A DNA stretch of 35,434 bases from contig JAGAKI010000078.1 in assembly GCA_017625695.1 (NCBI GenBank), positions 1 to 35,434 of the forward strand, given 5' to 3'. The notes beneath the pieces are model-generated. The model saw nothing but the letters and a program-made list of their open reading frames with translations. It did not search any database and was not told the DNA's origin. Source of the stretch: Clostridia bacterium (GTDB lineage Bacteria > Bacillota > Clostridia > UMGS1840). A program made the position numbers and the translations under genes. Position 1 is the stretch's first letter; every line of letters begins with the position of its first letter. Positions 14,981-17,081 of this stretch are shown here, one piece after another.

Positions 14981-15018
14981 AAAAAATCCTATGTGTATTG
15001 TAACACATAGGATTTTTT
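14981..15018. terminator. Bidirectional intrinsic terminator
   Basis: A perfect 16-bp stem (14981-14996 with 15003-15018), 6-nt loop, A6 and T6 ends. It serves the MATE gene and the convergent cysteine-rich ORF, whose stop codon touches its edge. Confidence 0.9.
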
Positions 15019-15239
15019 TACTGCATTTTAAATCTTGTATCTGCTGTATTCAAAACATTTCTCGGACATTTGATATGAATGCAATCATCGCAATGCTGTG
15101 GTCTGAAATACTCCAAACAGCAACACAGATAATCACATTCATCACAACAGATTTCATTCCCGTTTTCACCATTTCCCGGACAATCTTTTCCACCGTTTCC
15201 GGGAATCAGTTCAATCCCGGTTGGTCCGTCAATAATCAT
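15018..15239 (-). CDS. Small cysteine-rich protein of unknown function (73 aa)
   Basis: Not recognised as a named family. The N-terminal third is Gly/Pro/Asn-rich (IELIPGNGGKDCPGNGENGN). The middle is very rich in Cys (ICCDECDYLCCCLEYF), and the rest has HCDDC-IHIK-C spacing. In all there are ten Cys and two His within about 45 residues, suggesting metal or Fe-S binding or a disulfide-rich peptide. There is no signal peptide and no membrane segment. ATG at 15239 has an AAAGGGTGAG ribosome site at good spacing, which makes this a real gene despite its size. Upstream come a terminator hairpin, a structured leader and a sigma-A promoter (15477-15505). No modifying enzyme gene is adjacent, so a peptide natural product is not supported. 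Confidence 0.65.
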   Translation of the reverse strand: MIIDGPTGIELIPGNGGKDCPGNGENGNEICCDECDYLCCCLEYFRPQHCDDCIHIKCPRNVLNTADTRFKMQ

Positions 15240-15261
15240 ATTCTCACCCTTTTCTGAAAAT

Positions 15262-15289
15262 AAAAAATGCGCCAACCGTAGTCGACGCA
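15262..15289 (-). terminator. Intrinsic terminator/attenuator before the cysteine-rich ORF
   Basis: On the minus strand a 9-bp stem (15281-15289 with 15268-15276, two G-U pairs) is capped by a UACG tetraloop closed by C-G and followed at once by T6 (15262-15267). It lies between the structured leader and the ribosome site of the small ORF. It therefore either ends a small RNA or conditionally stops transcription of the ORF. Confidence 0.75.
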
Positions 15290-15310
15290 ATAAAACGCAA
15301 ACTCCAGTTG

Positions 15311-15472
15311 TTGTCACACAAACTTAATCAGAACGGGATTTGATTCGCACACCCTAATTAATGGAATTTGCATTTTTAACAAATTCAAAATTAGCGTGTG
15401 CAGAAAAAGGCATCGTTATTCTTATAAAAAAATAACAAATCCCTCTCTGATTCTATTAAGTTCATGTGACAA
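15311..15472 (-). ncRNA. Highly structured leader RNA or small RNA (unknown class)
   Basis: The RNA predicted from the promoter at 15477-15505 begins at about 15470. It folds back on itself with a 16-bp closing helix (15455-15470 with 15315-15330, two G-U pairs), then CAGA/TCTG and GGGATTTG/CAAATCCC. The closed junction holds a small TTATT/AATAA hairpin and a long hairpin (15347-15359 with 15389-15401, one mismatch, plus inner GAATTTG/CAAATTC at 15364-15370 and 15380-15386). A terminator follows 22 nt further on. The layout fits a riboswitch-like attenuator for the cysteine-rich ORF. It also fits a stand-alone RNA of about 210 nt such as a 6S-like RNA, since the helix is interrupted by an asymmetric bubble after about 35 nt. 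I recognised no known aptamer core. Confidence 0.6.
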
Positions 15473-15476
15473 TATT

Positions 15477-15505
15477 AGTATACCACATTCTATTCCATTA
15501 TGCAA
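15477..15505 (-). promoter_or_regulatory. Promoter of the structured RNA and cysteine-rich ORF
   Basis: On the minus strand, TTGCAT (15500-15505), a 17-nt spacer and TATACT (15477-15482). The predicted start coincides with the first base of the closing helix. Confidence 0.7.
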
Positions 15506-15773
15506 GAGTTTTTCGTTTTTTATGTTAAGGAAGCAGGGGATTTTCGATATTCCCCCTATCCCCTTTTACACGAGTGCTCAGTCTCCACACGGCTGTCCTA
15601 TCCGACGATTTAAAAACCGAAAGAAAAGATTCTACATCAGATTTTCTATAACCTGTAAAAACGTTATTGAACAACGAAACCAAAAAAATCCGCCCTTATT
15701 TTCGCAAGTGAATATGGGTGCAGGAAGACGGGAGTAAGGGATTGCGGAAATACCAGGCGGTGCTTTCTTTTTG
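15506..15773. other. Gene-free stretch
   Basis: Between the structured-RNA promoter and the repeat hairpin at 15774 I see no gene. The open frames on both strands lack ribosome sites and recognisable protein character, and the composition shifts toward G-rich, repeat-like text near 15710-15770. Confidence 0.5.
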
Positions 15774-15878: not shown

Positions 15879-17081
15879 TTATTCAATAACTGCGGTAACA
15901 GCGCCGGAACCTACGGTTCTACCACCTTCACGGATAGCGAATCTTAAACCTTCTTCAATAGCGATAGGTTTAATTAATTCAACTTCCATTTCAACGTTAT
16001 CACCAGGCATGCACATTTCGGTGCCTGCGGGTAATTTGATCTGACCGGTTACGTCGGTAGTTCTGAAATAGAACTGGGGTCTGTAATCATTGAAGAAAGG
16101 AGTATGTCTACCACCTTCATCTTTGGTCAGAACGTATACCTGAGCTTTGAATTTGGTGTGGGGTTTAATGGTACCGGGTTTCGCCAATACCTGACCTCTT
16201 TCGATTTCGTTTCTCTGAACACCACGGAGCAGTAAACCAACGTTATCACCAGCTTCAGCGTAGTCCAGTAATTTTCTGAACATTTCGATACCGGTAACAA
16301 CGATTTTTCTGGATTCTTCAGCCAGACCAACCAGTTCAACTTCGTCGTTCAGGTTTAACTGACCTCTTTCTACTCTACCGGTAGCAACAGTACCACGACC
16401 GGTAATGGTGAATACGTCTTCTACAGGCATTAAGAAGGGCAGGTCAGCTTTTCTTTCCGGAGTAGGAATGTAAGCATCAACCTGATCCATCAGAGCCAGG
16501 ATGGGAGCATATTCAGGAGCAGAAGGTTCGGTAGCAGCACATTCTAATGCCATTAAAGCAGAACCGCTAACGATCGGAATATCATCGCCGGGGAATTCAT
16601 ATTCATTCAACAGTTCTCTGATTTCCATTTCAACTAATTCCAGTAATTCGGGATCGTCAACCTGGTCAGCTTTGTTCATGAATACTACGATATAGGGAAC
16701 GCCTACCTGACGAGACAGCAGGATGTGTTCTCTGGTCTGAGGCATCGGACCGTCAGCAGCAGATACAACTAAGATAGCACCGTCCATCTGAGCAGCACCG
16801 GTGATCATGTTTTTAACATAGTCAGCATGTCCGGGGCAGTCAACGTGAGCATAGTGTCTGCTATCGGTTTCATATTCTACGTGAGCGGTAGAAATGGTGA
16901 TACCTCTTTCTCTTTCTTCGGGAGCTTTGTCGATCTGATCGTAAGCTTCGTACTGAGCCTGACCTTTCATAGCCAGAACTTTGGTGATAGCTGCGGTTAA
17001 GGAAGTTTTACCGTGGTCAACGTGGCCGATAGTACCAATGTTAACGTGCGGTTTGCTTCTTTCGAATTTAGCTTTTGCCAT
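15879..17081 (-). CDS. tuf: Elongation factor Tu
   Basis: EF-Tu, 400 aa, delivers aminoacyl-tRNA to the ribosome as a GTP complex. All G motifs are canonical: [30 protein letters not shown]. Domain 2 ([15 protein letters not shown]) and domain 3 ([22 protein letters not shown]) are complete. AAGGAGG precedes ATG 17081. It is the last gene of the str operon, 81 nt behind fusA; that gap holds a small TGAAGC/GCTTCA hairpin (17100-17114) but no convincing promoter. It is the only tuf in the window. Confidence 0.98.

Follow-up and report, generated by a model that had tools for sequence, protein, structure and literature searches.

We identified, on the minus strand of the 35,434-nt stretch of DNA analysed here (the window), a leader flanked by a small ORF (15239-15018) and an ORF recognized by eye as EF-Tu (15879-17081). 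We interpret this leader with considerable confidence as a cis-acting transcription attenuator, a predicted RNA switch working by three-way strand exchange, and as the first member encountered of a family that is apparently undescribed. Copies of this family sit before many genes, mostly for surface or secreted proteins, and probably govern whether each is read. Comparison among copies supports the alternative pairings, the promoter spacing and the gene association. The device would be of a kind known in principle (a riboswitch-like attenuator), and of a class that is new in having a pseudoknot as its deciding helix. The features of the window leader, all on the minus strand, are as follows.

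15500-15505, minus strand: -35 element TTGCAT, read by eye; weak, 3/6 match
15477-15482, minus strand: -10 element TATACT, 6 nt ahead of the first base of P1, from sequence
15457-15470, minus strand: P1 helix, 5' strand, from the fold and pairing versus swapped strands, with the probable start at 15470
15452-15456, minus strand: asymmetric bulge after P1, from the fold and by eye; AAUA-type in relatives
15445-15451, minus strand: P2 helix, 5' strand, from the fold (3' strand 15327-15333)
15437-15443, minus strand: P3 helix, 5' strand, from the fold (3' strand 15335-15341)
15415-15436, minus strand: P4 junction hairpin, from the fold; region of variable length among relatives
15346-15402, minus strand: P5 arm with the switching strand at its tip, from the fold
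15364-15386, minus strand: local tip hairpin GAAUUUG/CAAAUUC, predicted by the fold to lock part of the pseudoknot 5' strand
15363-15376, minus strand: pseudoknot 5' strand AAAAUGCAAAUUCC, complementary over 14 bp to 15292-15305
15313-15326, minus strand: P1 helix, 3' strand, from the fold, swap control and covariation
15300-15310, minus strand: antiterminator 5' strand CAACUGGAGUU, 10/11 positions pairing with 15273-15283; swap test
15292-15305, minus strand: pseudoknot 3' strand GGAGUUUGCGUUUU, sharing positions with the antiterminator 5' strand
15273-15283, minus strand: antiterminator 3' strand GACUACGGUUG, in the terminator stem and loop, from the fold and swap test
15268-15289, minus strand: intrinsic terminator stem-loop with UACG loop, from a terminator scan
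15262-15267, minus strand: T6 tract of the terminator
15245-15250, minus strand: ribosome-binding site AGGGTG, Shine-Dalgarno-like
15018-15239, minus strand: cysteine-rich ORF of 73 aa, matching no family in Pfam or NCBIfam

A preliminary description of this locus had placed a structured RNA here, and the window RNA indeed folds at -82.3 kcal/mol (z -10.2), with 0/200 dinucleotide shuffles as stable. The fold reproduced the two further helices and the junction with two hairpins that had been proposed (P2, P3, P4 and P5), the junction beyond P3 comprising two hairpins and a 2-bp helix. The proposed terminator with UACG tetraloop and T6 was located at 15289-15262 (-) as TGCGTCGAC-TACG-GTTGGCGCA-T6, and the ribosome site and 73-aa ORF lie downstream as described. 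A long first helix likewise exists, but P1 measures 14 bp from the likely start (15470-15457 paired with 15326-15313) instead of the 16 bp first given, because two bases upstream of that start had been counted. The pseudoknot, the antiterminator and the further copies of the RNA are features missed at that stage. The window promoter, TTGCAT-17 nt-TATACT at 15505-15477 (-), was read by eye and is omitted by a consensus promoter scan because its -35 element matches at only 3/6 positions. Among 200 aligned copies a -10 box (at least 5/6) lies within 16 nt of P1 in 187, compared to 35/200 with shuffled upstream sequence, and in 146/200 exactly 6 nt separate this box from the start of P1; under a loose rule run without a control, a -35/-10 pair is present in 199/200. 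The comparative -10 box and its 6-nt spacing, which back the earlier claim of a start point on the first base of the helix, argue that transcripts very probably begin with P1 itself, at 15470 in the window.

No familiar aptamer core had been recognized in this RNA, and Rfam 15 gave 0 matches to the whole window at gathering thresholds. Scanned with a permissive E-value, 15000-15620 gave only implausible families, all below threshold, and 20 relative loci gave no credible match on the element. Matches above threshold in those 20 loci correspond to tRNAs and one Gut-1 RNA off the element, and the single sub-threshold match overlapping an element (mir-2574 in L047, E 0.87) is not credible. The RNA is also not described in the open papers searched by title and abstract start; its core letters occur in only two unrelated papers in the search listing of open papers, and passages of PMC8632094, PMC11109978 and PMC7266159 concern other motifs. 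With no Rfam 15 match and none in open-paper searches, the family is apparently undescribed. What appears to be a sizeable regulatory RNA family would lie outside Rfam, perhaps because the carriers named here are all metagenome-assembled genomes.

The extent of the family was surveyed by several routes. Using blastn, the window RNA was found at 6 places in its own genome and matched 17 of 99 genomes, its own included; two blastn places (L020 and L021) were spurious. From 20 copies we built a covariance model (R1) that covers the 3' 125 positions with pseudoknot and terminator only, so that its matches lean towards these two structures, P1 and the antiterminator being absent from the model. In the own genome R1 matched 21 places at E<=1, 14 of them below 1e-7, and at E<=0.01 it matched 99/391 sampled genomes of the class, own included, scoring being capped at 9 candidates per genome. 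Of 398 genomes sampled from the phylum, the own genome alone matched, at E<=1e-5, which also serves as a specificity control for the model. An exact 25-nt core was found in 92 stretches of genome_contigs; R1 confirms the 80 that were listed, the remaining 12 (L156-L167) lying outside the R1 scan. These 80 are all from uncultured or metagenome-assembled organisms, many from animal gut samples, and are named Clostridia, Clostridiales, Oscillospiraceae, Ruminococcus, Christensenella, Firmicutes or just bacterium. The core pattern had no match in viral_contigs, nor the window RNA in plasmid records. One RNA copy was observed at 417-530 of an unannotated faecal phage record (L298; MT835503.1), 44 nt before a 382-aa ORF which we take to resemble an adenine-type DNA methyltransferase, with a presumably DUF262/HNH-like neighbouring ORF.

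Counts below refer to 228 elements, a set which excludes two weak matches (L041 and, on the minus strand, L026), two truncated ones (L084 and L124), L153 because a contig end is close by, places that had been fetched more than once, and L169, identical over the element to L168 at a different place. Two elements without a clear U tract were removed for strand tests (226), and three more, too near the end of their own stretch of sequence, for analysis of P1 (223); 200 are aligned. Copies share a common order of P1, an asymmetric AAUA-type bulge, inner helices of variable length, a tip strand AAAAAUGCANNYUC and the P1 3' strand, followed by a linker resembling GACAAUC, the strand GGAGNNUGCRUUUUU and a terminator whose loop is often UUCG. 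Conserved unpaired bases are few, comprising the bulge after P1, the linker GACAAUC and, in short copies, a tip loop UUUYGGU. P1 itself occurs in diverse versions, including GCCAAAC..GUUUGGC, GUCACA..UGUGAC, GCGACA..UGUCGC, GCUAAAC..GUUUAGC and others, and a P1 score of at least 22 was obtained for 210/223 copies with their own strands versus 46/223 with 3' strands swapped. Because best pairing was used to position the 5' strand of P1, these counts lean towards pairing, a bias which the swap control addresses. One natural variant in the own genome (G000), L004 / L035 (G000 C60:55532-55651), lacks the inner arm with the pseudoknot 5' strand, and keeps P1, the GGAG strand and the terminator ahead of a lipoprotein-like ORF; this natural deletion may have lost switching.

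Covariation, which the preliminary description had proposed as a check on its helices, bears out P1, some terminator pairs and one antiterminator pair, and not the pseudoknot. An unguided test, with a null of 100 alignments simulated on a tree, returned 5/6670 column pairs at E<=0.05, all within P1, each 97-100% canonical and showing several pair types. In a guided, tree-aware test of 48 pairs, those at E<=0.05 comprised 6/11 in P1, 3/9 in the terminator, 1/14 in the antiterminator and 0/14 in the pseudoknot, where 5 had p<=0.01; the switching strand is highly conserved and has little room to covary. The antiterminator pair (C22-T30, E 0.02) combines, over 176 copies, A (GACAAUC) facing U in 113 and U (GACUAUC) facing A in 20, and is paired in 82% compared to 59% expected.

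Given 19 copies, RNAalifold proposed unprompted a 15-bp helix between the tip strand and GGAG..UUUUU, which is a pseudoknot because the P1 3' strand lies between its two strands. All positions of its 10-nt core pair in 176/226 copies and 9 in 43/226, while 10 paired positions were seen in only 7/226 with a shuffled partner region and 45/226 with the core of another copy. Compensated pseudoknots were identified in L037 (AAAAAGUAU with AUACUUUUU) and L039 (AAAAAGUGU with ACACUUUUU), and for 88 copies with a changed core the mean energy was -16.2 kcal/mol for own strands versus -12.1 kcal/mol for swapped strands, own strands winning in 83% of the comparisons. Over all 226 copies the means were -17.2 and -15.0 kcal/mol, respectively, and the win rate was just 52% because most copies share one core. 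The antiterminator is formed by the 15 nt that precede the U tract, which are predicted to pair with the terminator's 5' arm and loop, with a mean of -15.1 kcal/mol for own strands versus -12.8 kcal/mol when swapped and a win rate of 72% over 226 copies. The antiterminator exceeds the terminator in predicted stability in 160/200 copies (-15.7 versus -11.7 kcal/mol in the window), and it would therefore be the pseudoknot that decides.

The tip strand is also predicted to be held within its own arm. With P1 held closed and the pseudoknot disallowed, at least 40% of this strand is locally paired in 180/200 copies, compared to 59/200 with the interior shuffled. Long copies lock the 3' half alone in 139/147, and among 53 short copies the 5' half alone is locked in 30 and both halves in 13; the lock function is thus predicted to be kept despite the differing geometry, and the two architectural types would lock opposite halves of one switching strand. 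In short copies, L262 and L240 among them, the locking strand is approximately a repeat of the pseudoknot 3' strand and leaves CUCU unpaired, an arrangement that suggests a toehold. Most of about 200 divergent copies retain the pseudoknot, antiterminator and local-hairpin options, and by predicted pairing the pseudoknot, antiterminator and terminator share strands, giving mutually exclusive helices as in the expression platform of a riboswitch.

These pairings suggest a mechanism in which transcription would start on the first base of P1, and the inner-arm strand (AAAAAUGCA..YUC) would then choose between its local hairpin and the strand after P1 (GGAG..UGCRUUUUU), the latter forming the pseudoknot. 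The post-P1 strand could alternatively pair with the terminator 5' arm and loop to form the antiterminator. Once formed, the pseudoknot would occupy the antiterminator strand, allowing the terminator to fold and turning the gene off; were the inner strand held in its local hairpin, the antiterminator would form and the gene would be read. We infer that RNA polymerase obeys the predicted pairings, that the pseudoknot, by this pairing logic, corresponds to the off state, and that the balance is tipped not by a protein but by a small molecule, an ion or a second messenger. Sensing of a small molecule by the leader is plausible on this model, and the family probably represents a riboswitch. More specifically, and tentatively, it may constitute a new riboswitch class for a signalling molecule, possibly a novel one, in which toehold-like strand exchange sets a surface-protein regulon of a dozen or more genes in uncultured gut Clostridia. 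The ligand question appears tractable, and clear predictions for single-round transcription follow from the competition of pseudoknot and antiterminator.

The sense of the switch might be the opposite, the signal turning genes on by disrupting the pseudoknot or by stabilizing the local hairpin. This is a quite possible rival reading: the greater predicted stability of the antiterminator in most copies leaves the decision to the pseudoknot, and the data favour neither sense, each fitting the sequence. It is rather unlikely, but deserves weight, that the same attenuator is set by an RNA-binding protein or antitermination factor instead of a small ligand, since the diverse regulon and the few conserved unpaired bases suit a protein site as well as an aptamer; elaborate arms of variable length and a conserved pseudoknot would nevertheless seem more aptamer-like than simple protein sites.

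As a putative ligand-sensing attenuator the family may be compared with riboswitches that use a terminator/antiterminator platform, such as the SAM-I and glycine riboswitches. It resembles these in its structured 5' domain, a shared strand choosing between aptamer and antiterminator, an intrinsic terminator, a close gene and the occurrence of serial copies, and differs in having no Rfam match, a choosing strand that forms a 14-15 bp pseudoknot with an internal hairpin, a strongly conserved expression platform and a promoter at fixed spacing to P1. Clostridial genomes carry several copies of c-di-GMP riboswitches, many before surface genes, and the present RNA is similarly found in many copies per genome and enriched before secreted-type proteins. 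It differs from them, too, in having no Rfam match, and in that GGDEF proteins were found in only 14/18 RNA-rich genomes, the four without a detectable one being the draft genomes G001, G025, G253 and G274, each possessing at least 9 RNA copies. c-di-GMP is therefore disfavoured as a common, universal ligand, with the proviso that these are drafts. T-box leaders share a long 5' leader ending in an antiterminator/terminator choice, but no amino-acid gene appears among the commonest 25 of 51 and 25 of 58 Pfam families downstream; the absence of a T-box core from the window, reported at the outset, holds both by eye and in Rfam (no RF00230 match), and a T-box leader is not supported. A leader-peptide attenuator is not supported either: the window copy has an ATG in P1 that L007, L008 and L009 lack, and a closed ORF of at least 6 codons with ribosome-site-like sequence is present in just 16/200 leaders. 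A type III toxin-antitoxin system was rejected, there being no tandem repeat in 15240-15520 and the downstream proteins being diverse.

Downstream of 216/228 distinct copies a candidate ORF was identified by a home-made picker, and some of the 12/228 without one are explained by the end of their own stretch of sequence. Among 191 better-scoring copies the ORF starts within 40 nt in 120, at 41-130 nt in 50 and further away in 21. A stricter rule demanding an ORF and ribosome site within 40 nt was satisfied by 110/212 copies, compared to 11/205 when shifted 500 nt and 4/212 on the reverse strand. By an equally home-made signal-peptide rule, signal-like N-termini occur in 94/149 downstream proteins of at least 100 aa versus 81/499 other ORFs of the same loci. 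Of 184 downstream proteins selected, 181 were scanned and 3 left out. Within the commonest 25 of 51 and 25 of 58 Pfam families, for sets of 95 and 86 proteins, counts in the first and second set were 7 and 12 for BspA-type leucine-rich repeats, 5 and 3 for copper amine oxidase N-terminal domains, and 3 and 1 for both S-layer homology domains and ricin-type lectins, with 5 zinc ribbons in the first set and 3 DUF6809 in the second. For anti-phage defence, the PADLOC matches in the same two sets comprised one member each, with no enrichment. The family suggests a single common signal that would control numerous surface and secreted proteins in gut bacteria, which are represented chiefly by metagenome-assembled genomes. 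The downstream proteins are diverse, and the link between RNA and gene is loose for some families. For example, 30 independently fetched DUF6809 loci gave 0 convincing R1 matches (best E 0.022), which argues against a general tie between DUF6809 genes and this RNA, and an Rfam scan of 20 of the 30, examined for a hint of the ligand, found no riboswitch.

A tighter association was found for the cysteine-rich protein of the window. Its family comprises 15 genes in four searched genomes of the genus, and collecting homologous loci through this protein, as had been advised, placed the RNA (R1) directly upstream of 14/15, with two copies in series in L313. The sole gene without an R1 match is L304 (G004 C6:4719-4910), just upstream of which 24 nt (C6:4927-4950) are identical to the end of the region of the window RNA, perhaps a remnant leader. 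Members are 58-83 aa long, with motifs PGN.GKDC.GNG and CCCDECDY-type and, in the window copy, 10 cysteines; distant forms were seen by eye in L132, L149, L168, L245 and L246. Searches with the window protein gave no match in phages and none of its relatives in viral_contigs.

These gene associations bear on two further readings. That the element is a stand-alone trans-acting sRNA, 6S-like or other, with downstream genes coincidental, we regard as very unlikely. It would account for an own promoter and terminator and for the few gene-less copies (e.g. L028 of the own genome, which faces a convergent gene by eye), but the antiterminator would be purposeless, same-strand ORFs are tightly spaced relative to controls, and cysteine-rich genes nearly all carry the RNA. 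The genome also has a separate canonical 6S RNA (C58:7366-7557, 83.2 bits), with no RF00013 match in the window, and a 6S above cut-off was found in this genome (G000), all 4 congeners searched and G025, and none in G008, i.e. in 6/7 genomes searched. While the present RNA shares with 6S RNA (RF00013) a long, helical form of about 200 nt with internal loops, its pseudoknot, antiterminator and downstream genes set it apart. The original suggestion of a new cis-regulatory RNA or a diverged 6S-type RNA is consequently retained in its first half, given that promoter, structured RNA, terminator and a close same-direction gene recur in many copies without an Rfam match, and abandoned in its second. 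Finally, a miniature mobile element or repeat carrying a promoter and terminator is barely credible: multiple copies, two of them on one strand within 3 kb in 10 loci, and a second repeat just upstream in 3 own-genome loci, window included, would suit it, but pairing is preserved by compensating changes, copies are placed before genes, plasmid and viral_contigs searches were negative with one phage record found, and in place of the many near-identical copies that had been named as its signature, the own-genome relatives of the window copy are divergent, with partial blastn matches of 73-91% identity.

Some other RNA copies have been duplicated recently along with the gene they precede. In the 228-element set, 10 loci have two elements on one strand within 3 kb; the distance between their R1 matches is 109-220 nt in six (L065, L101, L212, L232, L240 and L247) and 410-2801 nt in the others. 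At G000 C71:114172-114969 two RNA copies stand back to back, divergent, with one cysteine-rich gene each. Where the gene starts approximately 80-100 nt away, a GCAAA stretch (GCGCAAA, CGCAAAT or TGCAAAT) is often found in the spacer and could, by eye, pair with UUUGCGUUU of the switching strand (L003, L006, L010, L011, L014 and L024); such pairing may provide an additional regulatory layer. The second repeat occupies 15506-15700 (-) of the window, continuing towards 15800, and is unstructured (fold z +0.9 for 15540-15640). Four shorter copies and three near-full copies were identified, the latter at G000 C71:121821-122036, C71:114504-114718 and C9:10612-10820. The RNA was not seen around the C9 copy within the flanking sequence read; both C71 copies lie upstream of RNA copies that precede cysteine-rich genes.
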